DNA from: Flexibacter flexilis DSM 6793
GTDB lineage: Bacteria > Bacteroidota > Bacteroidia > Cytophagales > Flexibacteraceae
DNA: 64,000 nt
Direction of reading: 5' to 3'
NCBI RefSeq assembly: GCF_900112255.1
Contig: NZ_FOLE01000010.1
Coordinates: 1 to 64,000 of the forward strand
The notes under the pieces are model-generated. The model did not search any database. It worked only from the letters and a program-made list of their open reading frames with translations, and was not told where the DNA came from. Numbering within the stretch: position 1 is the first letter of the stretch; each line of letters starts with the position of its first letter. A program made the position numbers and the translations under genes. Below, piece by piece: positions 3,916 to 57,007 of this stretch.

Positions 3916-3917
3916 GA

Positions 3918-6309: not shown

Positions 6310-6369
6310 ACAAGCCAATAGGGGAGAGGCACTTCAAGTAAGAGTTTAATTGTTACGAAAAATACGAAA

Positions 6370-7287
6370 ATGAATACAGAAATGGCGTATCACGTGCCTG
6401 TGATGTTGGAGGAATGTATTAATGGACTGAATATCAGGCCAGACGGCGTGTACGTGGACGTTACTTTTGGCGGTGGCGGCCATTCGGCGGCTATCGTGGC
6501 CAAGCTCACGACGGGCAAACTTTATGCCTTCGACCAAGACGAAGATGCCCTCGAAAATACCAAAGGTTTTGATTCTAAGCGTTTTACGCTCATTGAGGCT
6601 AATTTTAGATACCTAAAGCGTTACTTGAAGCTGCACGGCGTTACCAAAATAGATGGTTTGTTGGCGGATTTGGGCATTTCCTCGCACCAAATAGACGCGC
6701 CCGAACGCGGTTTTTCTACCCGTTTTGATGGCAATTTGGATATGCGCATGAACCAAAACGACACACTGACGGCGGCCAAAATCATTAACACTTATTCGGA
6801 AGACAAACTGCACAAACTTTTCGGGATTTATGGCGAAGTGAAAAATGCCAAGACGTTGGCGGCTTTGGTCTATAAATCGCGCCTCAAGCAGCCTATCGAG
6901 ACGATACAGCAGTTCAAACAAGTGATTTCGGCGGTTGCGCCACGCGGCAAAGAACATAAATATTATGCACAAGTGTTTCAGGCTCTGCGTATTGAGGTAA
7001 ATCAGGAACTCGAAGCCCTACAAGAAATGCTTGAACAAGCCGCCGAGATTCTAAAGCCCGATGGCCGCTTGGTGGTGATGTCTTATCATTCGTTGGAAGA
7101 TAGATTAGTGAAAAATTACATTGCAAAAGGTAAATTTTTCGGAGAAGTTGAAAAAGATTTGTTTGGCAACGAACAAAAACCCTTGCAAAGCGTAACCCGC
7201 AAGCCCATCGAGGCGACGGAAGAAGAGTTGGCGCGAAATAATCGCGCACGTAGCGCAAAACTTCGTATTGCCGAAAAAATAGGATAA
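6370..7287 (+). CDS. rsmH: 16S rRNA (cytosine-1402-N4) methyltransferase RsmH
   Basis: 305 residues. The SAM-binding motif DVTFGGGGHS (about 29-38), DQDEDAL, LADLGISSHQID, the RGFSTRFDGNLDMRM block and the C-terminal SYHSLEDRLVKN and NNRARSAKLR are all diagnostic. It methylates the exocyclic amino group of C1402 in the decoding centre. The insertion between motifs is normal for the family. It is the second gene of the dcw cluster. Confidence 0.97.
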   Translation: MNTEMAYHVPVMLEECINGLNIRPDGVYVDVTFGGGGHSAAIVAKLTTGKLYAFDQDEDALENTKGFDSKRFTLIEANFRYLKRYLKLHGVTKIDGLLADLGISSHQIDAPERGFSTRFDGNLDMRMNQNDTLTAAKIINTYSEDKLHKLFGIYGEVKNAKTLAALVYKSRLKQPIETIQQFKQVISAVAPRGKEHKYYAQVFQALRIEVNQELEALQEMLEQAAEILKPDGRLVVMSYHSLEDRLVKNYIAKGKFFGEVEKDLFGNEQKPLQSVTRKPIEATEEELARNNRARSAKLRIAEKIG

Positions 7288-7291
7288 CACG

Positions 7292-7711
7292 ATGAAAAAT
7301 ACCCCTAAAAATATGCCCGCTAATCAATCTAAAGCTTCGTCGAAACCGTCGGGTGGTGGCGGTGTCAAACGCGAAAAAAGCGAAGGCAACAAAAGTATTT
7401 TTGGTTTTATTGATGGGTTGCTTCAGTTAGACGAGATTTTTGCCAACGGCATTCCTCCCAAATATTTGCCGCGTATCTTGTTTTTGGCTGCGTTGGGCAT
7501 TGTTTATATCGGAAACAGCCATTTTGCGAATAAAACCATTGTGCAACTCACCAAAGTAAAAGCCGAAACGGAGGATTTGCGCGTGGATTATACGTCCCTG
7601 AAAGCGGATTATATGTTGCGAAGCAAGCAATCGGAAGTAGCCAAAAGAGTGGCACCGATGGGCTTGGAGGAAAGTTCTGTTCCGCCTCAAAAAATAGAGT
7701 TAGAGGAATAG
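7292..7711 (+). CDS. ftsL: FtsL-like divisome protein
   Basis: 139 residues. A long basic cytoplasmic tail (about 1-55, rich in Lys, Ser, Gly) leads to one transmembrane helix (about 60-82, PRILFLAALGIVYIGNSHFA). A short periplasmic coiled coil follows with heptad-like VQLTKVKAETEDLRVDYTSLKADY. Topology, size and the slot between rsmH and ftsI identify it as the FtsL equivalent that pairs with FtsB and FtsQ to activate FtsWI; sequence similarity to FtsL is weak in this phylum. It starts 4 bp after rsmH. Confidence 0.8.
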   Translation: MKNTPKNMPANQSKASSKPSGGGGVKREKSEGNKSIFGFIDGLLQLDEIFANGIPPKYLPRILFLAALGIVYIGNSHFANKTIVQLTKVKAETEDLRVDYTSLKADYMLRSKQSEVAKRVAPMGLEESSVPPQKIELEE

Positions 7712-7735
7712 TAGTTTTTGATTAAGTATCTGAAA

Positions 7736-24816: not shown

Positions 24817-25965
24817 ATGACCATCTACACGTTTCATCGGTTGGAACAAAAAAACAAAAAAGGCGAAGCACCTATCTACGCGTACGTGATTCTGGACGGT
24901 GAAAAATCAGGTAATTTTGCCCTTGGGCTTGTCGCCAAACCCGAACTACTCGGCCAAATGCAATCACAAATCAATCTGGCCAAGCAAGCCATCACCGACA
25001 TACACACATTTTTGTCTATGTCTCAAAAATCGGTTGCAGCCAACGACATTAAAGACGAATACATACGTCGCAAACGAGGCAACACAATCAAAATCGTAGA
25101 AGTAAACAAGCCTGCGGCCGCTTCGCAAACGCCGTCGGAGGACATTTGTTTTTTTGACGTGGCAAGAAGGATGGGAAAGCCGCATTTTTACATTCAATGG
25201 TTTGAAAAATACGCCAAGCAACACCCCGAGTTTTCTACTAAAATCTCGGAAATTAGGCCACTGATAGACAATTATTTGTCTGTATTTCAGCAAAAAAATA
25301 CGGGCACGGCCAAAGTCTATTTTGGGCGAATCAAACAAGTAATTTTATTTGCAATCGACGAGGGATTAATCGTAAAAAATCCGTTACGCGGCATTGTGGT
25401 AAAGGCGAAAAAACGCGAAAAACTCACCTACCTAACACAAGAGGATTTGGAAAAAATCGAAAATTACGCCTTTGCCCCAAAAATCAAACCGTATGCAGAA
25501 ATATTCTTGTTTGCTTGCCAAACTGGTTTGTCGCTCTCTGATTGTGCAACAATTACGCAGGCTAATGTTGTAGCCTATGGGGAACGCCTGTACATCGTGG
25601 CTCGTAGAAAAAAAAGCAGTAGCGTGATTCGCACGCATTTGTCAGCCAAAGCGCATGGGCTTTGGCAAAAATATCAATATAATTTCAGTCAGTATTTTGA
25701 TGCTTTTGATGCAAAATTGTATAAAAAACAGCATAATCTTAGAATACAAGTTTTAATGAAAATAATTAGAGAAATTACAGGTGTAAAAAAAGTTACGTTT
25801 CACAAGGCACGCGCTACAAAAGCATTTGAGCTATTGAATCGGGGCGCAACCATAGACACGGTTTCGGCCACACTTGGCCACGCCAACACCGTAATTACAC
25901 AGCAGTATTACGCTGAATTATCACTGCAAACGCTTGATAATGCACTGGATAAGTTGGATAATTAG
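24817..25965 (+). CDS. int: Tyrosine recombinase / integrase
   Basis: 382 residues. An N-terminal Arm-type domain of the Bacteroidota kind (1-95) precedes a SAM-like core-binding domain (about 112-195) and the catalytic domain (about 205-375). Catalytic residues visible are H329 and R332 (HKAR), H355 (LGH) and Tyr364 or Tyr365 (TQQYY). The usual first arginine of TGLR is replaced by Ser239 in TGLSLSD, as known for IntDOT-like enzymes. It lies just inside attL and reads inward. It should catalyse integration and excision of the element. Confidence 0.93.
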   Translation: MTIYTFHRLEQKNKKGEAPIYAYVILDGEKSGNFALGLVAKPELLGQMQSQINLAKQAITDIHTFLSMSQKSVAANDIKDEYIRRKRGNTIKIVEVNKPAAASQTPSEDICFFDVARRMGKPHFYIQWFEKYAKQHPEFSTKISEIRPLIDNYLSVFQQKNTGTAKVYFGRIKQVILFAIDEGLIVKNPLRGIVVKAKKREKLTYLTQEDLEKIENYAFAPKIKPYAEIFLFACQTGLSLSDCATITQANVVAYGERLYIVARRKKSSSVIRTHLSAKAHGLWQKYQYNFSQYFDAFDAKLYKKQHNLRIQVLMKIIREITGVKKVTFHKARATKAFELLNRGATIDTVSATLGHANTVITQQYYAELSLQTLDNALDKLDN

Positions 25966-31032: not shown

Positions 31033-31581
31033 CTAATACGTCCAGTAGCCAATATCTTCATCGTCAATCAAACAACCAAGCACTTTCACTTTTCCCGCAG
31101 CAATGGCAATGGTTTTGTTACCCGACAAATCTTCATCGGTTGCGGGTAGCAATACATTTCGCGAAATGCTATCATTATTTTTTATGATAACCGTCATAGT
31201 TTTTCCGTTATAACGCTCATTGATAGCAAGTTGAATATTGCCAGTGCTTGTATTGTTAATAGTTATCTTTTGCGAAAGATAGGCTATGTTTGTTGTGCCA
31301 TTGGATGCCACTCCAGACACAAATCCTGTTGGAATTACGGCTTGCCAATGCGTGTTTTCAATGCCTCCGAACAGGGCGTAATATTGCATATGGTCAGCAA
31401 CATAACACAGCGTAGCAGCTTCTTTTCGGCAATCCTCAGGAATTGCATCGCGTTCTTCGATTGTAGCTACAAACCAAGCCCCGCCCCGCACGCGGTCGCT
31501 GTCCACGCCTACTTTTTTAGGGTTGCCCTTGATTTGCAATTCGCTCAATAAATATGTTCCGCCGTCAATTTCGTTTGCCAT
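31033..31581 (-). CDS. Fibre/spike-like protein
   Basis: 182 residues from ATG 31581, which overlaps the stop of the ATPase gene by one base. The N-terminal MANEIDGGTYLLSELQIKGNPKKVGVDSDRVRGGAWFVATIEERDAIPEDCRKEAATLCYV resembles the short collar repeats of Bacteroidota phage fibres, which contain ATIAERDAIP and ...GMLCYV. The C-terminal half is beta-rich with a trimeric look (TINNTSTGNIQLAINERYNGKTMTVIIKN). It probably forms the stalk on which the lectin-like protein is mounted. Confidence 0.6.
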   Translation of the reverse strand: MANEIDGGTYLLSELQIKGNPKKVGVDSDRVRGGAWFVATIEERDAIPEDCRKEAATLCYVADHMQYYALFGGIENTHWQAVIPTGFVSGVASNGTTNIAYLSQKITINNTSTGNIQLAINERYNGKTMTVIIKNNDSISRNVLLPATDEDLSGNKTIAIAAGKVKVLGCLIDDEDIGYWTY

Positions 31582-32414
31582 TATTCTTCGTCTTTGATTG
31601 GTTTGCAACGATTAAATATATCCCATTCGCCGTGTTGCCCGTATCGGTTTTTATTGCCAACAGTTGAGGCAACGCCGTTGTCCATTGTGATATGGCAATC
31701 CAGCTCGTGCGGCCATTCCTGAGAGCCTCGAAAATTACCTTGCTTAGTCGCTTGTGAAATAATCACAAAACTTGTTTCGGGGTATTTTCTTTTAATTTCG
31801 CGCCAATAATCTATTTTTAATCCTATATTGTCTTTGCTATCTATAAAGATACATTTGTAATTATTTGGATTAATGGCCGCTAAAGACACAGCAAAATCTA
31901 AGTTTGGAGATTTTATTTTTAAATCATTGATTTTTTGCGCTAACGTCCCTGTATCAAATTCCTCTGATGTAACATATACTGTTTTGCCATAATTTGCGGC
32001 GAGGAAATCAGCCAATGGCAACATATATGTTGTTTTGCCGCAACCCTGCTTGCCGTGCGCTAAAATCGAAAATGCACGCTTTGTGGGCTTACCAATCACA
32101 GAAGCATACTTCTCAGGCAATGTAATTGTTTCGTGGTTCACGCTCTTTGCCTCCGCCAATGACATCACTTCTTTTTCAGGCTTTTTTTCCTTAACACGCA
32201 CGCCTTCCATTGTGCTATTTTTGAGCTTTTGCAAGGCTTTTTTTACATTGTCAGAAAGCTCAATTTCGATGAACGCGCTGCTTTCTTTTTGCAATTTTTG
32301 CGAAATTTTTCTAAGAACTTCGTGCGGACTTTTGGCGAGCATATTAGCTACTTCCTTATATTTTTTATAAGGCATAGTAGTTTTATTCAAGGCTAATATA
32401 TCATCGATTTGCAT
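31581..32414 (-). CDS. RadA/RecA-like ATPase
   Basis: 277 residues. A helical N-terminus (1-95) precedes the ATPase core. Walker A is GKQGCGKT (121-128) and a Walker B-like strand is CIFIDSKDN. The segment FVIISQATKQGNFRGSQEWPHELDCHITM strongly resembles RadA (SQVTKxGxxxGxxxLEHxVD). It could act in recombination, genome handling or, since no terminase is seen, as the packaging motor. The packaging role is inference. It overlaps the ParB-domain gene by 14 bp. Confidence 0.7.
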   Translation of the reverse strand: MQIDDILALNKTTMPYKKYKEVANMLAKSPHEVLRKISQKLQKESSAFIEIELSDNVKKALQKLKNSTMEGVRVKEKKPEKEVMSLAEAKSVNHETITLPEKYASVIGKPTKRAFSILAHGKQGCGKTTYMLPLADFLAANYGKTVYVTSEEFDTGTLAQKINDLKIKSPNLDFAVSLAAINPNNYKCIFIDSKDNIGLKIDYWREIKRKYPETSFVIISQATKQGNFRGSQEWPHELDCHITMDNGVASTVGNKNRYGQHGEWDIFNRCKPIKDEE

Positions 32415-34719: not shown

Positions 34720-34905
34720 TTACCTTATTTTAGTACCCGTTCCATCAAAATCTCCAGTATCAGAATTAAAATAAAAATGCCGATTACCCACACTGATACG
34801 TGTGTACTGCGCTGAAAAAGAAACAGAAAAATTCCCTACAATTGGGTCATCTTTAATTTCAATTTCGGTAATTTTTCTAAATTTACTTTTTCCTCTTTTT
34901 GCCAT
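34720..34905 (-). CDS. Small basic beta protein, 61 aa
   Basis: Begins MAKRGKSKFRKITEIEIKDD and ends in a strand-turn pattern (FYFNSDTGDFDGTGTKIR). Its start codon lies inside the -1 frame extension of the lysozyme gene, so frameshifting ribosomes would terminate 23 bases inside it. Unknown function. Confidence 0.55.
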   Translation of the reverse strand: MAKRGKSKFRKITEIEIKDDPIVGNFSVSFSAQYTRISVGNRHFYFNSDTGDFDGTGTKIR

Positions 34906-35011
34906 TGAATGTCTTAGTTACAAATGCGTTAATCTCTTTTCGCTTCCAATAGGCGAGGCCGCCAATGGCCGCAATAGCAATCGTAATAGCTATTGCGGCT
35001 GCGGCTTTTTT
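34883..35011 (-). other. Programmed -1 frameshift signal and TM-helix extension of the lysozyme
   Basis: Reading the minus strand, the lysozyme frame runs GGA AAA AAG, which contains the slippery heptamer A_AAA_AAG (35005-35011) in the correct phase. A 5-nt spacer (35000-35004) leads to a perfect 11-bp hairpin: GCCGCAATAGC (34989-34999) with GCTATTGCGGC (34968-34978) and a 10-nt loop. The zero-frame stop TAG (34990-34992) lies in the stem. After a -1 shift 40 codons stay open to TAA at 34883-34885. They begin AAAAIAITIAIAAIGGLAYW, a clean membrane helix, followed by KRK and a basic tail. The extension has no start codon of its own. The layout is that of the dnaX frameshift signal. Confidence 0.85.
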
Positions 35012-35544
35012 CCGTCGGGGGAATAGACAAAATCATTGAGTCGGTTGAGCCAACCATCCAAAAACCCAGCTTTTGAAGCCGAAGCCTGCGCAATGGCGCG
35101 AAAATGTTCTTCACGCGCTTTGTGAAGTACGACAAACGTATTAGCAGAATCTTTGGCGTTGAGCGCGGCCAAAGTTTTTTGGCCAATAACGCCGTCAGCC
35201 GTCAGCCCTAATGCTTGTTGTGCTTTGCGGACGGCCGTAACAGGTCCAGAACCCCACGCCCAATCTGCCAATAGTTCGGCCACTGACTGATTCTTGATTT
35301 GGTCGCCTTTCACTTTGTCCCAATAATTTTTTTTGAAAATATTGGCAGCCGTTTCTTGCGATATAGCTTTGATTTCGGCAACTGTTGGGCAACGCCCAAA
35401 GTATTGCTTGTAGCCTATAGCAGAAACGCCCATGTTCGTACCAATTAGCTTGCCATCGCAATAATTAGCAGTGTCGTTTGGTAGGTTTTGAAAACCGCCT
35501 TCCCATTTCAGGGTTTTTTGAAAAGCAAGAACATGATTAGCCAT
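34990..35544 (-). CDS. GH108-family endolysin with peptidoglycan-binding domain
   Basis: 184 residues in the zero frame. The N-terminal GH108 domain (about 3-95) has FQKTLKWEGG with the catalytic Glu at 15, then NMGVSAIGYKQYFG and NYWDKVKGDQI. A PG_binding_3 domain follows (about 98-150, LADWAWGSGPVTAVRKAQQALGLTADGVIGQKTLAALN). There is no signal peptide. An LDGW motif at 162-165 precedes the end. A -1 frameshift near codon 180 would give a 220-residue form with a C-terminal membrane anchor. It should cleave glycan strands for lysis or, in anchored form, during entry. It starts 8 bp inside the upstream gene's end. Confidence 0.92.
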   Translation of the reverse strand: MANHVLAFQKTLKWEGGFQNLPNDTANYCDGKLIGTNMGVSAIGYKQYFGRCPTVAEIKAISQETAANIFKKNYWDKVKGDQIKNQSVAELLADWAWGSGPVTAVRKAQQALGLTADGVIGQKTLAALNAKDSANTFVVLHKAREEHFRAIAQASASKAGFLDGWLNRLNDFVYSPDGKKPQPQ

Positions 35545-36589
35545 CGATAATATCCCAGAAAATTACGTTAGCTAATTCAGTGGAGGTCTTGATACCATTG
35601 TCAGCCACAGCCAAAACAGTGCCTGTATTGTCATCTACTGATAACAATTTTCCGATTGCAGTATTGGAGGGCAGCAATTCCGAAGCATTGTGGGCTTCGT
35701 TCCAAACGTAAGCTGTTCGGTCAAGCACTACCATTTTTTCGGGCAAACCTGACATACCCACGTAAGCGGCTTGCGCACCACTTGGTCGGGGCGAAGAGCC
35801 GAATGCAGCTTGTAGTAAATCTTCACGGTCTATCGAATTGATTGCCCCCGAAAATACCCAACCCGTGCGGTTGTCGGATAAGCGAATTTTTGCCCAACGA
35901 GTAGAAGAATCCCCTGGCTTAATGTCGGTGGATATACCTAACAAATTGCCAATTTTTTGGCCTGTGGAAAAGCTGGCCAACGTAGTAGATTCAGCGTATG
36001 GCTTCATTTTGACAGATGTAGCGGTTTTGGCAACAGCGTACTTGTTTGCAAAAAAGAAGTTGTCCACTTCGTCCACGTATCGGGAATCAGCCATATTGCT
36101 GGTGCTTGCAGTAGTCGAAGCAGGCAAGGCCGCTTGTGTTTGCGGCGCAACTGCTCCAGCCAATATCCGTGTAAAATCAGCTTGTGCCACTGTATTGCCC
36201 ATGCCCAATAATTTCAAGGCGTTATAAGTACCATCGCCGAAAACACCGTCAGCACCACCACTTGCACTAATGAGTGCGGCGGGCGAGCCACCAAGTGCCA
36301 ATATTGCTTTTTGCATCTCTTTCACTTTCAGGTTTTTGTCGCCATACTTAACTGGCCAAGTGCCTGCGGGCAAGCTACTGCCACCCGATGAACTACCCGA
36401 AGTGCTCGGTTTAGTGGGATTGCTTGTAGTGGTAGGTGTGGCAGGAGCAGCAGTATTGCCATTGACACCAGACTTTACCGCTTTATACAGTAAAATCCCA
36501 CCACCGCCAACGACAGCAAGGTAAGCCGCAATTCCAAGACCTCTTGAAATCCATACTTCTGGAGTTGCTCTATTATTATTCTTAGCCAT
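35537..36589 (-). CDS. Membrane-anchored peptidoglycan-binding and SH3 protein
   Basis: 350 residues. One TM helix (about 15-34, LGIAAYLAVVGGGGILLYKAV) is followed by a Thr/Ser/Pro linker (45-75). A PG_binding_1-like domain (about 80-145) has LKVKEMQKAILALGG...GGADGVFGDGTYNALK. A second Thr-rich linker leads to a bacterial SH3-like domain (about 185-250, VKMKPYAESTTLASFSTGQKIG...RWAKIRLSDNRTGWVFSG). The layout suits a virion membrane protein reaching into the host cell wall. It shares the MAK(K/N) N-terminus and TM design with the annexin-like neighbour. Confidence 0.7.
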   Translation of the reverse strand: MAKNNNRATPEVWISRGLGIAAYLAVVGGGGILLYKAVKSGVNGNTAAPATPTTTSNPTKPSTSGSSSGGSSLPAGTWPVKYGDKNLKVKEMQKAILALGGSPAALISASGGADGVFGDGTYNALKLLGMGNTVAQADFTRILAGAVAPQTQAALPASTTASTSNMADSRYVDEVDNFFFANKYAVAKTATSVKMKPYAESTTLASFSTGQKIGNLLGISTDIKPGDSSTRWAKIRLSDNRTGWVFSGAINSIDREDLLQAAFGSSPRPSGAQAAYVGMSGLPEKMVVLDRTAYVWNEAHNASELLPSNTAIGKLLSVDDNTGTVLAVADNGIKTSTELANVIFWDIIDG

Positions 36590-36596
36590 AGCTATT

Positions 36597-37046
36597 TTAT
36601 TTCTTTTGGTTCAAAATCATAATCCATTGGTCGTAATACTCATTTCCCCAAATACTGCTTAGTTCGTCACGTGCCACTTCATTCAGGTTTTGGCCTTTGG
36701 TAAGGCGTGAAAATGCGGCCATTACTTCCTTATAAGTTTTAGCATCAGGGATTTCACGAGCGACCTGCAAAACGCCTTCCTCGTCTGTACCATCTGGTAC
36801 ATAGTCTTGCCCAGACGGTTGAAATGCTATCATCAGGCGAGCAGCGTAATTGGCTGGCGTAGCGTATTCCGATGTTTGATTTTCAGTGTTTTCTTGCCGA
36901 ATTTCCGCCACCGTGTTACGAGTAAGTCTGTACACGCCATAGCCTGCACCTGTAAAAACGAGGCCTAAAGCCGTCCACCCAGCAGCTACTTTTAAAGCAG
37001 CAAACGGGTCTTCGCGGCCTGTACGATTTTTTTTATCTTTGGCCAT
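36597..37046 (-). CDS. Single-TM protein with annexin-like repeat
   Basis: 149 residues. A basic start (MAKDKKNRTGRED) leads to one TM helix (about 22-42, AGWTALGLVFTGAGYGVYRL). The C-terminal domain DGTDEEGVLQVAREIPDAKTYKEVMAAFSRL...LNEVARDELSSIWG follows the annexin repeat pattern (GTDEExxxxxL....xxxxxxAFxxLxGxxLxxxLxxELS). Annexins bind membranes through calcium. Here it may contact lipid in a virion or host membrane. The family assignment rests on pattern only. Confidence 0.5.
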   Translation of the reverse strand: MAKDKKNRTGREDPFAALKVAAGWTALGLVFTGAGYGVYRLTRNTVAEIRQENTENQTSEYATPANYAARLMIAFQPSGQDYVPDGTDEEGVLQVAREIPDAKTYKEVMAAFSRLTKGQNLNEVARDELSSIWGNEYYDQWIMILNQKK

Positions 37047-37185: not shown

Positions 37186-37914
37186 TCAACTGTTGGGAGA
37201 TTCGTCTGTATCGTGATTGGTGTTTTCATCTTTTTGACTGTTTATCATTGAGTTGTAAAATACATCTATGGTTTCAGCACCACGCGGCGTAGAAGCCCAA
37301 ACATTGATTACTTGTAAGACTTTTTCGCGCGTCAATTCTTCGGGATACATGATACACAGACATTCGCCTAAGTCTATATATTTTTGTTGTTCGGGAGTTA
37401 TAGCAGGAGCAGCAGGGAGCGCACCCATTGTTTGCGGTTTCATAAACCCATCAAGCATGTTGGATATTTTTGGCGTAAGATTTTCCACCAACTTTCCACC
37501 CGCATCAGAAAGCATTCCAGCCATTATTTTCCGAGACGAAACTGATTCTTTTTCAGCTTCATAGTCAGCGACTTGCTCTTCCAGTTCTTCAATTTCCTTA
37601 TTTAGCTCTTTGATTTTGGCCAAATGCTCTAATTGTTGTGATTCAAAGCGTTTTACCGAATCTTCCAAAGCAGCTACACGCTGTTTCTCTTGAAAAGCGC
37701 GAATGCCTGCCTGTATTTGCTCTTGAATGTATTGCGGACTTACTTGTGCAACTGTCTGAATACCAGACATTGTACTTCCAGCAGTATTTATTTTTTCAAA
37801 CAAGGCTGTTTTAGCAGCCGCACCAATACTTTCTTCACCAATAGCAGCTTCTATTTCTTCAAATTCTTTGTCAGTTATCCGAAATGAGTATGTACCTTTA
37901 TTTTCCTTTTGCAT
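37186..37914 (-). CDS. Coiled-coil protein, 242 aa
   Basis: An N-terminal alpha/beta start (GTYSFRITDKEFEEIEAAIGEE) precedes a long coiled coil (about 80-125, FESQQLEHLAKIKELNKEIEELEEQVADYEAEKE). A segment NLTPKISNMLDGFMKPQTMGALPAAP follows and then a helical C-terminus ending in an acidic tail. The LDGF motif (near 153) matches the recurring element motif. It could be a scaffold or spacer protein. Its upstream region carries repeated GTTTACA boxes. Confidence 0.55.
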   Translation of the reverse strand: MQKENKGTYSFRITDKEFEEIEAAIGEESIGAAAKTALFEKINTAGSTMSGIQTVAQVSPQYIQEQIQAGIRAFQEKQRVAALEDSVKRFESQQLEHLAKIKELNKEIEELEEQVADYEAEKESVSSRKIMAGMLSDAGGKLVENLTPKISNMLDGFMKPQTMGALPAAPAITPEQQKYIDLGECLCIMYPEELTREKVLQVINVWASTPRGAETIDVFYNSMINSQKDENTNHDTDESPNS

Positions 37915-39556: not shown

Positions 39557-40216
39557 TTATCCTAAGAAAAGGATACCCAAATCAACACGGCCAACCAAAT
39601 GGGCAGGAATTGACGATGAAACGATGCGCAACGTAACGCCAAGGTCAGTGCCTGCTTTGGCAAGCATTGGGCTTGTGAAATAGTGCGTACCAGCAGGATT
39701 TGGCGAATTTGGAACTGTGTGGAACAAACGAGCTGACAAATCCTTGACAGCTTTAGAATCACCTGCTGTCAAATCAACTAAACCATTCAACACAGAAGCA
39801 TCGGCCACATTATAATCACCAATGGCCACATTATCAGCAGCTTGTTCGGCTGTGAGCAAGCTCATTGAATAAATAATACATGGCTCTGTTGAAGAAATTT
39901 TATTTCCTTGAACGTTGGTAATACCTGGGCGAATAATGTCGCCGCTCTCAAAGAAGTTGATTGTAGCATTTTGAATAGCTGCACCAGATGGGTTGATTTG
40001 TTTGGCCGAAAACAATTTGTTATCACGCACTTTTTTCAAACCAGCAGCCACTTCTTTTAAGAGAGTGTACAAAGTAGTATCAACAATTTGCGAAGGGTCG
40101 CAATGAACCGTGAAGTTTGCCGTGCCCTCAATTGGTCTGATGTCAAATTCTCCAGAAATGGCCGAACCCCCAATTGTTTCAAGGGCTAATTGCTTTAATT
40201 GACTTGGATTATACAT
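39557..40216 (-). CDS. Candidate major capsid protein
   Basis: 219 residues, unknown family. After a short N-terminal helix (MYNPSQLKQLALETIGG) strands dominate: SGEFDIRPIEGTANFTVHCD, AAIQNATINFFESGD, CIIYSMSLL, then GTHYFTSPMLAKAGTDLGVTLRIVSSSIPAHLVGRVDLGILFLG. Low charge, no TM segment and no catalytic motif. Reasons for the call: strong isolated gene followed by a terminator, placement between the membrane protein and small beta proteins, and absence of any HK97-like gene. It is too short for most double jelly rolls, so a single jelly roll is more likely. Structure prediction would decide. Confidence 0.4.
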   Translation of the reverse strand: MYNPSQLKQLALETIGGSAISGEFDIRPIEGTANFTVHCDPSQIVDTTLYTLLKEVAAGLKKVRDNKLFSAKQINPSGAAIQNATINFFESGDIIRPGITNVQGNKISSTEPCIIYSMSLLTAEQAADNVAIGDYNVADASVLNGLVDLTAGDSKAVKDLSARLFHTVPNSPNPAGTHYFTSPMLAKAGTDLGVTLRIVSSSIPAHLVGRVDLGILFLG

Positions 40217-40280: not shown

Positions 40281-40925
40281 TTACCCAATATTTTTGAATT
40301 TTCTCTTGGGACTACCCATTGTTACTGGCATACCACCCATTGTTGTTGGAAGTTTACCCATTGTTACAGGCATGCCATTCATTGGCTTACTGTCGTAATT
40401 GTTGGCGGCCAACCATTGTTGCGCCTGTTCGGGCGTGGTTGGAATGGTCGTCGGAACTACGGTCGGGGTGCTTGGCAGATACGTGTTGTACGGTAATCGG
40501 CCCAAGCCATTCACGGAAGCCGCCGCAGCCGCACGAGCCGCCGCACCTGAACCAATCCCCAATTTTTCTGCTGCACTTGGGGCATATTTGTCAATGAATA
40601 CACTTTGACCTGCTCCGCTGGTAAGCTGTTTCAAATTGGCTTTGGCTTCTTCTTTGAACGAACCATCGGTAACGGGCTTGTCGTTAGCTCCTGCGGCCAT
40701 CACGCCGCTACCAATAGCACCTACGCCAGCAGTGGCAAGCATTGGCTCATTGAAATACCACGCAGCAACCGACGCAACTAAACCCAGCCCCAAAGCATAG
40801 CGGCCAACGGCTGCGCCAACAAGCACGCCCGCAGCTCCTGCGCCAACATGATAAGCGGTATCTGTAGCTTTCATGCGCTTAGTGGCTGTACCGCCACTTT
40901 TTCCTTTTTTGTTATCTTTTGGCAT
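40281..40925 (-). CDS. Glycine/alanine-rich membrane protein with C-terminal repeats
   Basis: 214 residues. A basic start (MPKDNKKGKSGG) is followed by two or three hydrophobic segments (about 27-47, GAGAAGVLVGAAVGRYALGL; 49-60; 62-82). A soluble region comes next with AAASVNGLGRLPYN. The C-terminus has the near-repeat GMPVTMGKLP / GMPVTMGSPK and a basic end. NGLG and MNGM match the recurring element motif. It is probably an integral virion membrane protein. It lies 12 bp from the large transglutaminase-like gene. Confidence 0.55.
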   Translation of the reverse strand: MPKDNKKGKSGGTATKRMKATDTAYHVGAGAAGVLVGAAVGRYALGLGLVASVAAWYFNEPMLATAGVGAIGSGVMAAGANDKPVTDGSFKEEAKANLKQLTSGAGQSVFIDKYAPSAAEKLGIGSGAAARAAAAASVNGLGRLPYNTYLPSTPTVVPTTIPTTPEQAQQWLAANNYDSKPMNGMPVTMGKLPTTMGGMPVTMGSPKRKFKNIG

Positions 40926-40937: not shown

Positions 40938-43325
40938 TTAAATTCTTAATTTTTTACTTTTTTGAGAGGTTGGTTTTTTGTTTTTTGCAGACTTTTTTTT
41001 GCTGCCAGCCGCACGGCTTAAAGCAGAAGTCCAGTCTTCACCATCTTTGCGAATGGATTTCGCTTTTTTGGCAATTTTACCAATATCGGCTTGCCCCAAA
41101 CCATTCATTGTGCCGCTTGACTTTCGTTGTGACTTACCTTTGTCTTTGCTGCTGCTGATAATAGCCACTGTAATTGCGGCTAACGCAGCCCCACCGACTA
41201 CATACAGAACTGTATTTCCTGTTTTTTCAACATCTCCAGCGTTATTTGTTTTGCCGTCAGAGCCTGCGGGTGGCAAGGCTTGCGGTGTTGTCGCAGGCAA
41301 TGTACTTGCTGCTGGTGCAGTGCTTGCAGGTGGTGCTTGAGCCGTTTGCGTTGCTTGTGCAGTGCTTGCAGGTTGCGCCGTTGGTACTGCTGTACTTGCC
41401 ACCGTTGAAGCAACGTTAGCAACAGCACTTTGAGCCGCACAAATGGATAGTTGTGTATTGTAAAAAGACATTGCCGCACTGTCTATGTCAGCATTTCCCG
41501 TCGGAATTGGTTTTTGTGGCGGAACGCATTGCCCAGATGCAGATAGGGGCTTTTTGAATGTAGTCAGCATTGTGCAGGCAGTGCCAATAAGACCAGATGC
41601 CGCAGCAATGACAACGGTTGCCGAAACAGGTTCGCCCATTGTTTGGCTGCCAGCAATCGGATTGCCGTTTTTGTCTGTAATTGCGGGCAATGCGCCTGGC
41701 GCATGAATCCCCATAGCCTGTAATGGTAGAATGTAGCGTCTTTCATCAACACCCAAATTTCCTCCTGTGTGTAAATATGGCTTTGCCAAGTAACCGTATT
41801 CATACAAAAACTGATTACGGCGTGCCTCATCCCAACCTGGTTTCAACCCAACAGATTCTATGTACTTGAATGGCACTTTATTGCCATTAATGTCTTTGGT
41901 ATAATACACTGAGTTCCAAGCAGGAGTAGCAGCATCAGTGTACGAGCCATATATGTGAACTAACAGGTTTTCATATACTTTTCCCCAATCATACGCAGGG
42001 TTAGCTTTCCATTGTCCATTGACTTGGACAATTGGCTGGAAACCTGCTTCTTTGCCCGCACCCCAAATTTTGTCGTCGAGCGCACCGCACAGTAACGCTA
42101 ATTCCGCAGGCGTAAGAATTATTGCCTTATCCAAGGCATATTCTTGTTCGTCCTCAAACTCATTGTTATTCAGCGTGCTTGCATCCATTGGAACAACATA
42201 CGAACCGCCCCAACCTTTATTACCTTTGCCGTTTAGAATAGCCTTTTTCAAATTGTGGCGTTTGCCGCCCATTTGCCAGAATTTTTCTTCGAGAAAATCC
42301 AAAGCATTTTTGGCTTTGTCCCAAGAATCAGCAGACAAGCCTTTCGACATTGCTTGTTCTTTGGTCAAATACCCCCATTTGGCGCGTTCGGCAAAATTGA
42401 ATAAATCAACCTTCATCGCGGCAAGAACACCGTTGCGGACAGTGATTGTAGCAGGGTTTGTGTAGCGATTCACCAAGCGAATCACTTTTCCAGCACCGTC
42501 CGTAAATTCTTTGATGGTAAATTTAATGCCGTCTCGAACTTCGTCGCGCACGTTGCGGAAAAGCTGACCAGCAGCCGTATTACCAATTTGATTCACGACT
42601 TGCGTTACACCGCTCCCGACTGCATTGGCAGCATTGCTAATGCCACTACCTACTGCATTGGCAGCATCACTAATCCAACCATTCATTTGCTGAGGTTGAT
42701 TGCAACCACAATCAGGATTGCCTGGACAACCAAGTGTATTTGTATTAGGCAAACCGCCAAGCTCTTGTAATTCTGCCATATAGGTATCGTCTATATCGTA
42801 ATAATCATATTCTTTGTTAAACTCATGACAAACAGGGTCGATTATTATCGTTTTCCTGCCGTCAGGAACTACCACGTAGATGTGTTGGTAGTCATTCTTT
42901 TTGTCAATTTGTACGGCATTCAAATTATTTGAACGACGTATGTAGTGAGGTATTCTCAGATTTGTTAATACACTGGAAATGAAGGTAGTGTAGCAATCAC
43001 AATCAACACCCGTTATTCTGTCGCGCCACATTGCGTAAGGCCGCCGCACCTGCTCAACTCCTTTTTTATCTTCCTGATACTGAACGTAATGGAATAAAAA
43101 AGTCCATATATTTTGACAAGTTTCGTATAGGTTTTTTCCTTGCAAAACAGGCGCAATGCGCTCGGTTTGGTATAGTGTCCGATAGATTATATCTTTCATA
43201 TAATCTACTGTTTTGCTGGTGGTTAAGCCCTCTTTTACATGAGTAATTACCACATCTTCGGCAGGGCCAAAAAATTGGTCGAACCGCTCACCGCCAGCCG
43301 CTAATACACGTTTGCCTACCCTCAT
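40938..43325 (-). CDS. Large protein with transglutaminase-like domain and C-terminal TM
   Basis: 795 residues from ATG 43325 (5 bp after the upstream stop; the longer in-frame start at 43448 would lie within the upstream gene). A transglutaminase-like Cys-His-Asp site is visible: C109 in TGVDCDCYTTFISSVL, H148 in YQHIYVVV and D163 in TIIIDPVCHE. Then come a Cys-rich stretch (CPGNPDCGCN), MNGWISDAANAVGSG repeats, a large middle domain, and a Thr/Ala/Pro/Gln linker (about 600-690). One TM helix (VLYVVGGAALAAITVAII) and a very basic tail with MNGLGQADIGK finish it. It may process, crosslink or anchor virion proteins. Confidence 0.7.
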   Translation of the reverse strand: MRVGKRVLAAGGERFDQFFGPAEDVVITHVKEGLTTSKTVDYMKDIIYRTLYQTERIAPVLQGKNLYETCQNIWTFLFHYVQYQEDKKGVEQVRRPYAMWRDRITGVDCDCYTTFISSVLTNLRIPHYIRRSNNLNAVQIDKKNDYQHIYVVVPDGRKTIIIDPVCHEFNKEYDYYDIDDTYMAELQELGGLPNTNTLGCPGNPDCGCNQPQQMNGWISDAANAVGSGISNAANAVGSGVTQVVNQIGNTAAGQLFRNVRDEVRDGIKFTIKEFTDGAGKVIRLVNRYTNPATITVRNGVLAAMKVDLFNFAERAKWGYLTKEQAMSKGLSADSWDKAKNALDFLEEKFWQMGGKRHNLKKAILNGKGNKGWGGSYVVPMDASTLNNNEFEDEQEYALDKAIILTPAELALLCGALDDKIWGAGKEAGFQPIVQVNGQWKANPAYDWGKVYENLLVHIYGSYTDAATPAWNSVYYTKDINGNKVPFKYIESVGLKPGWDEARRNQFLYEYGYLAKPYLHTGGNLGVDERRYILPLQAMGIHAPGALPAITDKNGNPIAGSQTMGEPVSATVVIAAASGLIGTACTMLTTFKKPLSASGQCVPPQKPIPTGNADIDSAAMSFYNTQLSICAAQSAVANVASTVASTAVPTAQPASTAQATQTAQAPPASTAPAASTLPATTPQALPPAGSDGKTNNAGDVEKTGNTVLYVVGGAALAAITVAIISSSKDKGKSQRKSSGTMNGLGQADIGKIAKKAKSIRKDGEDWTSALSRAAGSKKKSAKNKKPTSQKSKKLRI

Positions 43326-43330
43326 AGCCG

Positions 43331-43822
43331 TTACACTTTTACGGAGAGTTCCTCGTATTGCGTAGGAACTTCCACCGCAACACCGCCTACAATTGCCCGA
43401 AAACTTGTCGCAATGACAAGCACAGTTCCGCTTTTTATCGCGTTCCAAATTGCTGTTCCAGATGCTAGTAGTGTTGTCAATGGCATTTTTATTTCAAACG
43501 TCGGAAAGTCGTTTGGAGACTGGATTTGCGCAGAAGCTGGTATAGTAATTAGTGTCGGATTAGCGTTGGACGTGCCAAGTTCTGCACCATCTTTTTTTGC
43601 AGTCAGCACGCGCACAAATGGATAGGAAATTTGAATGGATTTAAGGGTGGGATTTTTGATAATAACATTGGTCTTAATCGTAAGCCCGCCGAATAAAGTG
43701 CCTGAAAACGAACTTGACGTTTCCACTACAATTTCATTACCCAAATTAAGGTAGCCGCCAGCTTTAACGGCCAAAAAGCCAAGCCCTAATATACTACCAA
43801 TCCATAACCACGTTTTTTTCAT
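43331..43822 (-). CDS. LEA14/WHy-like protein with N-terminal membrane anchor
   Basis: 163 residues. One TM helix (about 4-25, WLWIGSILGLGFLAVKAGGYL) precedes a beta-sandwich: GTLFGGLTIKTNVIIKNPTLKSIQISYPFVRV matches the LEA14/WHy pattern (NPxxxxIxIxxxxxxV), with later PNDFPTFEIKMPL. Such domains are common in Bacteroidota exported proteins. First gene of the leftward structural operon, so it may be a virion membrane component. Confidence 0.6.
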   Translation of the reverse strand: MKKTWLWIGSILGLGFLAVKAGGYLNLGNEIVVETSSSFSGTLFGGLTIKTNVIIKNPTLKSIQISYPFVRVLTAKKDGAELGTSNANPTLITIPASAQIQSPNDFPTFEIKMPLTTLLASGTAIWNAIKSGTVLVIATSFRAIVGGVAVEVPTQYEELSVKV

Positions 43823-44967: not shown

Positions 44968-45777
44968 TTACCACCGACAATCGTTGCAGGTGGACGGCTG
45001 ACCTAATTCACGTCCCTCAAACGTAAAATAAAAATCATCTTCTGACCTTCCCCAAAACTTTTTAAGTTCTTGGCTTAGTTGCAAAGCCCTTAAATAATTA
45101 TCTGGGTAAAATTCTGCTACTGCTGCAAAGTCTTTAGGATTCATATTTTTGCAAGGCAAACAGTTATTGTGGCTAAATATTCTTTTGCCATTTTCGTCTT
45201 TTATATCGTAAATTTTGGGATACCAACCTATGTGTTTTTTTACAATATCAAAGCACCATTCATCTGTAAAGCTACCAATAGTGTAATGTTTTTCAGGAGT
45301 AAACATATCAACCTGCATTACTTTTTGTTGCCTTTCGCCACGCCTTTTTAATTCGTGTTTGACATACCCAACTAAATCGTATTTTATACCATTTTCAAAA
45401 CAGTAAACAGCCATTGGTATTATTTTCAAATTCTTACTGCAAGGGCTATTTATTGGGTGTGGTATAAGGTTTTGCTCTTTAAAGTATCGAAGTATTGAAT
45501 TGCTTGTAATCTTCACTTTTACATTATCAAAATGCTTTCTTGCATACCTAATACCATCAGCAACAAATTGAAAAGTATCTGGTGAGTGTTCGGCAAAATG
45601 TGCATAAAATAAATGTAATTCAGCAGGTTTTGCTTTGGATTCAATTAAATCACAAAGCACAGCCATTGAGTTAATCCCACCAGAAAGACCAACCATTATT
45701 TTTTGACCAAAGTACGGCACACAACAAGGAGTTTGATGCAAGGTATTGCTGACAAAAATGCTATCAACTTTCTTCAT
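44968..45777 (-). CDS. PP-loop ATPase, PAPS-reductase-like family
   Basis: 269 residues. The PP-loop reads MVGLSGGINSMAVL (about 32-45); canonical SGGxDS has Asp where this has Asn. Other features are HLFYAHFAEHSPDTFQFV, CSKNLKIIPM, and a C-terminal cysteine set (NNCLPCKNM and CNDCRW) that could hold a metal or Fe-S cluster. Phage members of this family are often labelled phosphoadenosine phosphosulfate reductase, but many act in nucleotide or DNA modification. With two DNA methylases nearby, DNA modification is the more attractive guess. Confidence 0.75.
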   Translation of the reverse strand: MKKVDSIFVSNTLHQTPCCVPYFGQKIMVGLSGGINSMAVLCDLIESKAKPAELHLFYAHFAEHSPDTFQFVADGIRYARKHFDNVKVKITSNSILRYFKEQNLIPHPINSPCSKNLKIIPMAVYCFENGIKYDLVGYVKHELKRRGERQQKVMQVDMFTPEKHYTIGSFTDEWCFDIVKKHIGWYPKIYDIKDENGKRIFSHNNCLPCKNMNPKDFAAVAEFYPDNYLRALQLSQELKKFWGRSEDDFYFTFEGRELGQPSTCNDCRW

Positions 45778-47506: not shown

Positions 47507-47734
47507 TTAAGAGTTTAATAGATGATACTCCGAATACTTTATTTTTTTGCAATAGACCACAATTTCAATGCAATCAGGGCAATTTACTTTTTCGTTTGTG
47601 GTTTGACTTGCCTCATATCCTAACAAATTATCTCCAGCCAAATCTTGGCCGCACAAGGCATAATCTTTTTGTCCAAATCCTAAAAAATGAACAAGTTGTT
47701 TACCGTCTTGTGTTATTTTTTCGCGTGTTGCCAT
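47507..47734 (-). CDS. Small putative zinc-binding protein, 75 aa
   Basis: Pattern HFLGFGQKDYALCGQDLAG followed by VNCPDCIEIVVYCKKIKYSE suggests a two-part zinc site (H...C...CxxC), as seen in short phage proteins of Bacteroidota that share the xHxLxxxxxxLCGxxLxGD...CPxCxxxL layout. No known activity. Confidence 0.55.
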   Translation of the reverse strand: MATREKITQDGKQLVHFLGFGQKDYALCGQDLAGDNLLGYEASQTTNEKVNCPDCIEIVVYCKKIKYSEYHLLNS

Positions 47735-47902
47735 ACGTTATTCATTCAATAAGTGTACAAGGCTTTAATTACGTTTTCGTCAAGGTCGTTCATGCTAATC
47801 TTTTACCTCTGACATACACGTTGTTTTTTACAATTTTTAAACACATAAATTTACATTATTTTTTCTGTTTATACCTATATTTTACGATTTTTTTTAATAA
47901 AA

Positions 47903-47929
47903 AAAAACCGCGTGTGAGTGCGGTTTTTT
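47903..47929. terminator. Terminator downstream of the frameshifted phage gene
   Basis: AAAAACCGC pairs with GCGGTTTTT around an 8-base loop, with A and T runs on both sides, 26 bp beyond the stop of the frameshifted gene (minus strand). Confidence 0.75.
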
Positions 47930-47954
47930 GGGGTGTTGGATATATTTTCGAGAG

Positions 47955-48597
47955 TTAAAAATTATCACTTCTGTAGTTGTAATATTCGCTTCTTTTTCCA
48001 CAAACATCGCACGAATAAACACCTTCGCTATCGCAAGTAAAATTGCAACTGTGAGCATCAATAGCATAATCCTCGTTCTCCATTACAGGAATTTTATATA
48101 AAATTTCCTCAGACCAGCCAATAATTTGACCTTGAAACGGTTTATCAAACCATGCCAAAAAATCGTCAAGCGAAAGCCCGTCATTATTGGCCAATGTTTC
48201 AATGGAATATCCTGTAATTATTTCCCCGTTTTGCGAAACAATAAACTCTTTATGGTCGCCTCGTATTACTAATTCTATATCATAGATTTGAGTGATAGTA
48301 ATATCTGGAGCAATGGTAATCTGCTTACTCCGATATGGTTTCCCTGACCAAACATGCGGGCTAAATTTGTCGCCTTCGCGCCATCGTTGTCCCTTGCGAA
48401 TAGTAGTATTTTTAACATCGCAAATTGTGGTATCTAAATCTACAACGTAATCAGTAGTTGTTCCCAGCGCATCACTCCAATCACCTGTTTTTTTTTCGGT
48501 AAATGGCATTGTAAATTTTTTCAACAAAAAAAGTTGGTTGTCCTGCTTTTGGGTGGTTTGCAGGATATTGTCTTGAAAATGAAATTACTCTACTCAT
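47955..48597 (-). pseudogene. Conserved phage protein split by a frameshift in an A9 run
   Basis: Frame 1 starts at ATG 48597 and reads MSRVISFSRQYPANHPKAGQ then PTFFVEKIYNAIYRKKNR before TGA. Frame 2 continues with TGDWSDALGT and NTTIRKGQRWREGDKFSPHVWSGKP, then YRSKQITIAPDI, to 47955. I remember the two parts as one Bacteroidota phage family (N-terminal SFSRxFPxxHPKAGxPTxFVEKI, central HTIRxGxRWxxGDKFSPRxWSGKPYxSKQ). The frames join at nine A residues at about 48488-48496, and loss of one A, or +1 slippage, would restore a protein of about 214 residues. Function unknown. Confidence 0.65.
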
Positions 48598-51122: not shown

Positions 51123-52610
51123 TCAAAAAGGGGGTTTATCATTTTCAAATGAACTGATAGAATTAGAATTATCAGGGATTTTTGGCAAGGCTTCGGGCGG
51201 GCGTTCTGACGGCCACGCCGTCGCTGTCTCAAATGGTTTCGGCCACGCTGCAAAAACGTCGTCGCTCAAATCACTGAATTTTGAGTGTTTACCCGAAAAT
51301 CGGGTGTTCACGGTGTCCAAATCGCCGTTACGATGCTTGGCAATAATCACTTCGGCTGTGCCTATGGTGCTGGTGCCGTTTTCGTCCACTGTTATTCCGT
51401 AGTATTCGGGGCGATACAAGAAAACTACCATGTCGGCATCTTGCTCAATCGAACCCGATTCACGCAAATCCGAAAGCATAGGGCGTTTTTCGGTGCGGCT
51501 CTCCACGGCGCGGCTCAACTGCGAAAGGGCAATGACGGGCACGTCCAAGTCTTTGGCCAACATTTTCAAGCCCCGACTGATTGACCCTATATCTTGCTCT
51601 CTGTTGGATTGACGGCCTTTGCTCTCTGGGACAGATACAAGTTGCATATAATCAATTATGATTTCGTGCAAGCCGTAAGTCTCTTTGATTCGTCGCGCTT
51701 TAGCCGCAATTTGCAATACGGTTAGACCTGCTGAATCGTCGATGTATATCGGCAATTCAGAAATGCGGCCAGCTTCACGATAGACTTTTGCCCATTCGGG
51801 TTCGGTCAATTCGCCTTTGCGAAAACAAGCTGAATCAAGCTCCAACTCGTTAGCATAAATCCTTGAAACCAGTTGAAGTGCTGACATTTCCAATGAAAAC
51901 AAAGCAATTTTTTTGCCCATCTTGGCTGCGTTGATAGCCATGGTTACAATCATGGCCGTTTTGCCCATGCCTGGGCGAGCCGCCAAAACAATCAAATCGG
52001 TATTCTGCCAACCCGACGTAATGCGATCGAGTGAGGTCAGGCCTGAGGGTACACCTGTGAGGCCGTCGGGGATCTGTGATTTGGATTTCAGGTCTTCTAT
52101 GAAAAGATTAGAAAGCGTAACCATTGTTTGTACTTTTTTCGCCAAAAAGCCATTGAGCACTTCAAACAATTGCTTTTCTGCGCGGTCAAGCTGCACGAAT
52201 ACATCTTCTGTCTCGTCAAATGCCGCGTCTTTCATACTATCAGCCACCCGAATCATGTTGCGGCGTAAGGATTTTTCCGCCAAAATGCGGGCATGCGCTT
52301 CAATGTTCGCAGCCGAATGCACATTGCTCGTACAAGCAAGTATGTATGACAACCCACCAGCCTCATTAAACAAGCCAAGTGCTTTTAACTTTTCGCTAAC
52401 AGTCAGTATGTCAATCTTTTGCCTATCAACAGCCAGCGCAAAAATGGCCGCAAAAATCGCACGGTTACGCTTGTCGTGAAAGCAATCATCGTTCAGAAAG
52501 TCGGCCACGACCAGCCACGCATCAGATTCGACGAGCAGCGCACCAATTACGGCGGCTTCGAGGTCTTGCGCTTCGGGATAGCGAGGAGCAGGTTCATTTT
52601 TTTTGGCCAT
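51123..52610 (-). CDS. dnaB: Replicative DNA helicase DnaB
   Basis: 495 residues. The N-terminal primase-interaction domain (about 12-110) and RecA-like C-terminal domain are present. Walker A is ARPGMGKTAM (211-220); FSLEMSALQLVSRI, IIDYMQLV (Walker B), LSQLSRAVE and DLRESGSIEQDADMVVFLYR also match. It unwinds the element's DNA at forks. No primase or polymerase is encoded in the window, so host enzymes must complete the replisome. Confidence 0.96.
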   Translation of the reverse strand: MAKKNEPAPRYPEAQDLEAAVIGALLVESDAWLVVADFLNDDCFHDKRNRAIFAAIFALAVDRQKIDILTVSEKLKALGLFNEAGGLSYILACTSNVHSAANIEAHARILAEKSLRRNMIRVADSMKDAAFDETEDVFVQLDRAEKQLFEVLNGFLAKKVQTMVTLSNLFIEDLKSKSQIPDGLTGVPSGLTSLDRITSGWQNTDLIVLAARPGMGKTAMIVTMAINAAKMGKKIALFSLEMSALQLVSRIYANELELDSACFRKGELTEPEWAKVYREAGRISELPIYIDDSAGLTVLQIAAKARRIKETYGLHEIIIDYMQLVSVPESKGRQSNREQDIGSISRGLKMLAKDLDVPVIALSQLSRAVESRTEKRPMLSDLRESGSIEQDADMVVFLYRPEYYGITVDENGTSTIGTAEVIIAKHRNGDLDTVNTRFSGKHSKFSDLSDDVFAAWPKPFETATAWPSERPPEALPKIPDNSNSISSFENDKPPF

Positions 52611-56509: not shown

Positions 56510-57007
56510 ATGAATAAAAAAACTATTGGTTTGATAATCAAGGATTTGAGAACTAAAAATAAGATGAAGCAAAAGGATGTTGCGCAAGCAATCGGCGTTA
56601 CATCTGCTGCAATATCTGATTACGAGGTAGGTAAATCCAATCCGAGTGATGAAAAAATAGAGCTGTTGGCCACACTTTTTAAAGTGCCAATAGATTTTTT
56701 TTATGAAAAACAAAAAACAAGTAAACTAAACTTGAATCAAGTGCCTGAAATGGGAGACTGGAAGGAGGAGATAAAAGAGGAAATCAGGGCTATGCGTGAG
56801 AAAATGCAAGATGAAATTGATTTTTACCGAAACGAGTTGAGCTATTTTAAAGACGCATTGAAAGAAGCACATGAGCAACTTCGTGCCAAAGACCGATTCA
56901 TTGAAAACTTGTTTGAAAAGTCGGGAAAGCCTAAAGTAAGTAAAGAGCCTCGTAGAGAGTATTTTTTGGATTTGGGTGCGCAAGTTGCTGTTGCTCAAAG
57001 AGCCTAA
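56510..57007 (+). CDS. Xre-family repressor
   Basis: 165 residues. An N-terminal HTH (about 5-60) reads IGLIIKDLRTKNKMKQKDVAQAIGVTSAAISDYEVGKSNPSDEKIELLATLF. A C-terminal coiled coil (about 95-140, EIKEEIRAMREKMQDEIDFYRNELSYFKDALKEAHEQL) should make dimers or larger assemblies. There is no LexA/CI peptidase domain, so induction would need another signal. It is the last gene before the right end of the element and divergent from the 71-residue gene. Likely the lysogeny repressor. Confidence 0.85.
   Translation: MNKKTIGLIIKDLRTKNKMKQKDVAQAIGVTSAAISDYEVGKSNPSDEKIELLATLFKVPIDFFYEKQKTSKLNLNQVPEMGDWKEEIKEEIRAMREKMQDEIDFYRNELSYFKDALKEAHEQLRAKDRFIENLFEKSGKPKVSKEPRREYFLDLGAQVAVAQRA

Follow-up and report, generated by a model that had tools for sequence, protein, structure and literature searches.

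In Escherichia coli dnaX, a -1 frameshift at A_AAA_AAG, with a short spacer and a stem of about 11 bp, yields two products in a host that has only tRNA-Lys(UUU), and this sole tRNA-Lys makes AAG slippery. The dnaX shift gives a truncated product, and a Shine-Dalgarno-like stimulator is present upstream. Programmed -1 shifts also make tail chaperones, capsid or transposase variants in tailed phages (lambda G/GT among them) and in insertion sequences (IS elements). Among virion-associated muramidases, we know of no recoding for P15 of phage PRD1. As far as the available text of its source goes, P15 belongs to a membrane-containing phage, acts in lysis and is associated with the virion (PMC6356626). 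The available text on the phage-encoded endolysins of Enc34, M4Lys and Siskin describes a C-terminal membrane domain and states that the Enc34 type can lyse without a holin (PMC8943055). In Enc34, from the tailed phages, the domain has two helices and is part of a single ORF (PHA02564 domain), and the word "frameshift" is absent from the main text of that article (PMC8943055). The initial annotation of the locus described here knew of no phage endolysin controlled by frameshifting; the literature that we searched (titles and abstract openings, with subscription papers mostly outside) likewise announces none.

The window, that is, the whole 64,000-nucleotide stretch of Flexibacter flexilis DSM 6793 DNA analysed here, contains on its minus strand a gene (34990..35544) whose 184-aa zero-frame product is a GH108 lysozyme (N-acetylmuramidase) with PG_binding_3. 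The protein matches PF05838 (E 2.5e-18, 66.8 bits against a gathering score of 21.2), PF09374 (E 5.9e-11) and, among the PHROGs, the endolysin family phrog_315 (5.2e-34). Glu E15 near the N terminus is invariant in 12 aligned proteins, and we take it to be the catalytic Glu. The 3' end of the gene reads, on the minus strand and in the zero frame, GTC TAT TCC CCC GAC GGA AAA AAG CCG CAG CCG CAA TAG. It contains the heptamer A_AAA_AAG in the zero frame (35005..35011, minus strand; a homopolymer run of 6 A), followed on the same strand by a 5-nt spacer (35000..35004) and a perfect 11-bp hairpin with a 10-nt loop (34968..34999; arms 34999-34989 and 34978-34968), the 5' arm of which holds the zero-frame stop TAG (34990..34992). 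Compared with shuffled sequences, the hairpin has a z of -3.14 over 91 nt, with 0 of 200 shuffles as stable, and of -2.61 over 70 nt.

The -1 frame extension (34883..35005, minus strand) encodes the predicted membrane helix AAAAIAITIAIAAIGGLAYW and a basic tail in 40 codons plus TAA. This frame is open for 9 codons before the slip and for 40 codons after it (35005-34886), it ends at TAA 34885-34883, and a TGA stands shortly upstream of the slip. The open -1 frame, AAAAIAITIAIAAIGGLAYWKRKEINAFVTKTFNGKKRKK, contains no ATG, GTG or TTG. The predicted products are thus 184 aa in the zero frame and 220 aa after a -1 frameshift. All the elements named in the initial annotation are present in the sequence, from the in-frame heptamer, the 5-nt spacer and the stop-holding hairpin to the 40-codon -1 frame with its membrane helix, its basic tail and no start codon of its own, and the 220 residues that it gave for the frameshift form agree with our computed length. 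The host genome has one tRNA-Lys, with anticodon UUU, among 46 tRNA hits (one of these hits was not called by ARAGORN).

We conclude that this provirus gene is very probably recoded by -1 programmed ribosomal frameshifting, such that one gene would supply both a free and an anchored enzyme. Ribosomes that do not slip would end at TAG and produce the 184-aa soluble muramidase, while a fraction would slip back one base on A_AAA_AAG, aided by the hairpin 5 nt downstream, and would add the C-terminal membrane helix and basic tail to give the 220-aa form. We infer that such slipping occurs. The free form would serve exit, as an endolysin, and the anchored form would sit in a tailless virion's membrane and open the wall at entry; its presence in the virion membrane and its use for entry are plausible. 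The basic tail suggests a tail-in orientation in the membrane, which would leave the enzyme on the outer side although no export signal is known for it.

The lysozyme gene lies in an integrated element that extends from integrase to repressor (window 24817-57007). The integrase (24817..25965, plus strand; phrog_1, E 6.7e-29) is near one edge of the element and a repressor-like regulator (56510..57007, plus strand; phrog_8, E 1.6e-17) is near the other. A scan of 30 window proteins against the PHROGs returned the integrase, the repressor, a DnaB-like replicative helicase (51123..52610, minus strand; phrog_19, E 3.9e-106), methyltransferases and an ATPase (31581..32414, minus strand; best match phrog_6891, E 2.3e-16), and no terminase or portal was matched among these 30. 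The ATPase is found in 37 of 390 genomes, its own included. The scan also gave a virion structural match for 31033-31608 (E 8.6e-6), and the element carries a PAPS-reductase-like gene (44968-45777; phrog_424).

The genes described next lie upstream of the lysozyme on the same, minus strand. Its immediate neighbour (35537..36589) encodes a 350-aa protein that has a hydrophobic segment at its N terminus and matches SH3 and PG-binding families weakly, below the cut-off, and phmmer matches it to 17 ORFs in relatives. The next gene (36597..37046) encodes a 149-aa protein with a hydrophobic segment that is also a conserved neighbour (16 ORFs in relatives by phmmer). The same gene run includes a 242-aa coiled-coil protein (37186..37914) with weak head/tail PHROG matches (E 0.0085 and worse). 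Further upstream are a 219-aa protein (39557..40216), a 214-aa hydrophobic protein (40281..40925; one relative by phmmer) and, on the far side of the latter, an 836-aa hallmark protein (40938..43448) that we followed across the order by its profile. The hallmark protein has no Pfam match; its C...H...D pattern hints at a transglutaminase-like fold.

The 219-aa protein is probably a single jelly-roll capsid protein, as judged from its predicted model. An iterated profile finds it in 34 of the 45 loci searched (two of them identical) and in four more besides. Its AlphaFold (AF2) model is strand-rich (pLDDT 75.5, pTM 0.72), and the best PDB match is 6oj0_A, from the Sulfolobus polyhedral virus 1 (SPV1) reconstruction (E 4.5e-4, TM 0.40/0.46), with an rmsd of 4.0 over 144 residues and a Z of 7.8, which is within the usual background. 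Because a Z below 8 is close to background, the capsid identity is probable and not proved; the lack of other capsid families in the fold-search lists is uninformative. The absence of terminase and portal matches among the 30 proteins scanned, the probable capsid protein and the hydrophobic proteins beside the lysozyme together make a tailless, membrane-containing virion plausible. The hallmark protein has no tblastn match in 50,697 phage records, and the window element possibly represents an undescribed provirus family. Two viral contigs were matched in a search with the 836-aa protein.

The hallmark protein is common to the window element and a second locus, L046 (loci are referred to by L numbers). 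Within the order, a profile built from the two proteins has matches in 41 of 390 genomes, the window's own included, often covering only the N-terminal part of the protein. We took the 40 loci downstream of these matches together with the window, L046 and L047, and searched the 43 loci with profiles for three kinds of hydrolase, GH108 and two others. At least one of these enzymes is encoded in 24 of the 43 (18 GH108, 3 SLT, 3 glucosaminidase); contig ends truncate several loci, where an absent hydrolase means little. In nine of the 24 (window, L083, L084, L085, L087, L089, L105, L110, L122), covering three unrelated enzyme families, a membrane helix follows in the -1 frame, always after a canonical heptamer. 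Five others (L046, L047, L088, L100, L119) have a membrane helix fused in frame. The remaining ten (L086, L091, L094, L095, L096, L097, L099, L103, L107, L121, with L095 and L096 both counted despite identical ends) have no attached helix, and the anchor is therefore not obligatory. Helices near some of these ten are separate genes with their own ATG. We rejected L103 and L107 as -1 cases, since their downstream ORF starts with an ATG that overlaps the lysozyme end, as in ordinary overlapping genes. For L119, L121 and L122, membership of the family is based on the 836-aa profile only, as the search for the 219-aa protein found no homologue in them.

Among the GH108 enzymes, a match is present in 10 of 98 related genomes, the window's own included, and a scan of genome contigs returned one unrelated GH108 locus (L039). 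The nearest relative found for the window lysozyme (46% identity; L021, part of L031) has T_TTT_TTT in frame, followed by a -1 membrane helix with a KKK tail; an ATG precedes the tail by nine codons. Four GH108 relatives from one other family of the order (L083, L084, L085 and L087) are only 28-30% identical to the window gene and keep A_AAA_AAG with a -1 membrane helix. The helix is fused in frame in five GH108 relatives, L045, L046, L047, L088 and L100 (the first three form the locus pairs L032/L045, L036/L046 and L027/L047). Besides the lysozyme, L031 and L045 have at least four other genes in common (271/253, 144/140, 149/149 and 118/108 aa), which means that the same slot is filled by a -1 helix in L031 and by an in-frame helix in L045. 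The relatives' -1 helices and in-frame fusions support the proposal of the initial annotation that one gene may make a soluble and a membrane-anchored lysozyme. They also supply the conservation of heptamer and -1 helix among homologues for which it called, not only with A_AAA_AAG in the four relatives above but also with A_AAA_AAA (L264, L265), T_TTT_TTT (L031, L266) and G_GGA_AAG (L155).

L031 and L045 represent a second provirus type, found in different families of the order and rich in small membrane proteins. Its L045 member has a HerA/DUF87-like ATPase, with DUF87 at its cut-off, and the 144-aa neighbour of this element type has no match in viral contigs.

The same arrangement occurs on enzymes that are unrelated to GH108. 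The SLT transglycosylases of L089 (PF01464, E 6.1e-9) and L110 (E 1e-9) and the N-acetylglucosaminidases of L105 (PF01832, E 5.9e-29) and L122 (E 7.8e-27) end in A_AAA_AAC followed by a -1 helix, and their four elements have no GH108 match. In L089, L105 and L110 the hydrolase gene has the same position as the window lysozyme, directly after a gene homologous to that of the 350-aa protein. The sister elements L089, L105, L110, L119, L121 and L122, with SLT or glucosaminidase in place of GH108, are a case of enzyme swapping; the helix is in the -1 frame in 4/6 and in frame in 1/6.

At the level of the class, 395 genomes were searched and 33 places were returned, of which 25 were classified; the other eight were the window's own gene, four seen before and three without a locus. 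L240/L264 and L246/L265 have A_AAA_AAA and a -1 helix, and L251/L266 has a T10 run and a -1 tail that is marginal as a helix (KD15 0.61). In L247/L267 (L267 9342-10034, reverse-complement coordinates) the lysozyme ends in a T11 run and a membrane helix lies in the +1 (or -2) frame, through another kind of slippage or an indel. The elements of L264-L267 all encode both the 836-aa and the 219-aa protein; we fetched these four loci because their tails were shifted, and they are left out of the tally of nine, five and ten. Six more of the 25 lysozymes have a clearly hydrophobic in-frame end, as judged from the tail sequence only. ATG-less membrane helices are also seen in the +1 frame after the stop in L266 (11254-11847) and L083 (11626-12360; both in reverse-complement coordinates), and these may be chance or further recoding.

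Searches of IMG/VR and of phage isolates with the lysozyme gave mostly distant GH108 proteins, below 50% identity among the matches listed (except the self-match of L155). L155 (IMG/VR; 1-8604 of a 10,578-bp contig) encodes a GH108 lysozyme with G_GGA_AAG, a GC-rich hairpin one nt downstream of the heptamer and a -1 helix without a start codon. Matches to its capsid protein come from 53 phage records (Vibrio and Pseudoalteromonas), and many of the 20 records listed are annotated as double jelly roll, which makes the contig corticovirus-like. L040 and L041 were discarded as frameshift relatives: their lysozymes have plain ends and the contigs look like tailed phages. In all, 106 loci were classified (26 of the 35 entries from one search, where the remaining nine comprised four genes already known and five entries lacking a locus, plus 80 kept of 215 confirmed).

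Altogether there are 14 -1 cases, the nine of the tally and five others, against one +1 case (L267/L247). A canonical X_XXY_YYZ heptamer is present in 14/14: A_AAA_AAG in five, A_AAA_AAC in four, A_AAA_AAA and T_TTT_TTT in two each and G_GGA_AAG in one. The shift falls between the enzyme domain and the helix in all but L266 and L267, in which the slip site overlaps the beginning of the helix. Both frames were inspected in the 24 genes of the tally: nine have their helix in -1, and no +1 helix lacks a start codon of its own; as the class-level classification covered the -1 frame only, the count of directions is clean only in these 24 genes (9 vs 0). Runs of A or T of at least 9 are present in half of the cases (7/14), with A9-A10 or T10 in L083, L084, L085, L122, L264, L265 and L266. 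Shorter runs of 6 (window, L105, L110), 7 (L087, L031) and 8 (L089) are found in six, and L155 has no homopolymer.

These data bear on whether the gene is instead a lysozyme-helix fusion that recently gained or lost one base, with loss of the anchored form, or whether the record is wrong because of a sequencing error in the A run. Homopolymers are hot spots for indels, fusions in frame do exist in relatives and L267 is shifted in the opposite direction, all of which would fit such an event; the runs of at least 9 in half of the cases would fit it too. The window run is only 6 A, however, and L155 shifts without any homopolymer. Moreover, all nine shifts in the 24 two-frame genes are -1, at canonical heptamers and after an intact domain, in three enzyme families, and L083, L084, L085 and L087 keep the domain, the heptamer and the -1 helix even though L084, L085 and L087 are only 68%, 38% and 44% identical to L083. 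The -1 direction, the canonical heptamers and the site after an intact enzyme domain favour ribosomal frameshifting over indels, and we consider a broken fusion or a faulty record highly improbable.

The runs also raise the possibility that slippage of the RNA polymerase on A or T stretches, and not of the ribosome, yields the mixed products. The seven cases with A9-A10 or T10 would suit such a mechanism, but runs of 6-8 are short for polymerase slippage and L155 offers no run at all; with its 6 A and a positioned hairpin, the window gene is a poor candidate. Transcriptional slippage is in our estimate very unlikely. Local hairpins of -12 kcal/mol or lower are predicted in the window, L083, L084, L087, L089, L105, L110 and L155, an intermediate one (-10.7 kcal/mol) in L031 and structures weaker than -7 kcal/mol in L085, L122, L264, L265 and L266. 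The idea that all relatives share the hairpin was thus rejected, with 5/14 weak, and in shuffle tests on seven cases only the window has a z below -2.

Start codons in the open -1 frame vary among the cases. None of ATG, GTG and TTG is present in five (window, L084, L087, L155, L264), so we rejected the idea that all -1 tails are start-free. Six have only GTG or TTG, including L089, L105, L110 and L122, which makes 11/14 free of ATG. An ATG is present in three, upstream of the slip in L031 and L083 and within the tail in L265. Small membrane genes often follow endolysins, and every -1 helix after the stop in the 106 classified loci, L155 apart, had a start codon near by; the -1 helix could on this basis be a separate, holin-like membrane protein made by internal initiation or reinitiation, and the ATG, GTG and TTG codons just listed would serve it. 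The five start-free frames speak against a separate protein, as do the relatives in which a helix of this type continues the lysozyme frame, and we regard it as highly unlikely. Ribosomal frameshifting is, in turn, supported by the recurrence of the -1 helix after different heptamers, by the in-frame fusions and by the same layout on two unrelated hydrolases.

As a control, we examined 933 ORFs from a crude gene caller in 938 kb, mostly the relatives' loci. An in-frame X_XXY_YYZ within the last 75 nt, with a -1 frame that continues past the stop, is present in 85 of the 933. Twelve of these have a -1 tail of 15-70 aa with a membrane helix, and 11 of the twelve are wall hydrolases (seven GH108, four of other families); the sole other ORF (window 47596-47958, plus strand) is unrelated. 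The control missed L085 and L266, which fall below the hydropathy cut-off, and L084, which the crude caller did not call. ATG-less short -1 tails with a helix are found in 9/32 ORFs with a heptamer vs 16/239 without, and 8/9 are hydrolases; the heptamer-helix enrichment under these strict filters is modest.

A further question is what the anchored form would do. The frameshift could be real and the anchored form could serve only to time lysis at the host membrane, with no part in the virion. The C-terminal membrane domains of Enc34 and M4Lys, which according to the available text mediate holin-independent lysis (PMC8943055), lend weight to such a role. The lysozyme gene adjoins genes for predicted membrane proteins and a probable capsid protein, and one -1 case is a corticovirus-like genome; corticovirus relatives are membrane-containing. 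Neither observation against a pure lysis role is decisive, and we hold that role to be possible, though on balance doubtful.

A broader reading is that a slippery heptamer and a short membrane anchor form a portable module, placed on at least three unrelated peptidoglycan hydrolases of an undescribed, tailless and probably membrane-containing provirus family and, independently, in a corticovirus-like virus, with one gene giving an exit enzyme and an entry enzyme in the virion membrane. We put the chances of this broader reading at about even. If true, a small tailless virus would obtain its exit and entry enzymes from one gene, and the presence of the arrangement on GH108, SLT and glucosaminidase enzymes alike points to a general rule in this virus group. 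Gene finders limited to a single frame would report only the short lysozyme, and the anchor would be overlooked.

The window gene resembles dnaX in its heptamer, short spacer, downstream stem of about 11 bp and two predicted products from one gene, and in a host whose sole tRNA-Lys has the anticodon UUU. It differs in that its shift would extend the protein with a membrane anchor, whereas the dnaX shift truncates. The parallel that the initial annotation drew with dnaX thus holds for heptamer, spacer and stem and falls short upstream, where dnaX has its Shine-Dalgarno-like stimulator and none is visible at the window site (no purine-rich hexamer in 30 nt, by eye). Like lambda G/GT and the IS elements, the locus would use a programmed -1 shift in a phage or mobile-element gene, and L155 has the very heptamer of lambda G/GT, G_GGA_AAG; the lambda and IS products, however, are not known to include wall hydrolases with a membrane anchor. 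The Enc34-type endolysins, as described in the available text of their source, are like the predicted 220-aa form in being wall hydrolases with a C-terminal membrane anchor, but theirs is a two-helix domain in frame and the window has a single helix in the -1 frame. PRD1 P15, to the extent covered by its source, is comparable as a virion-associated muramidase that a membrane-containing phage uses for lysis. Both frameshifting and membrane-anchored endolysins have precedents, and what would be new here, as far as the literature searched goes, is a frameshift that chooses between a free and an anchored hydrolase, on three enzyme families.
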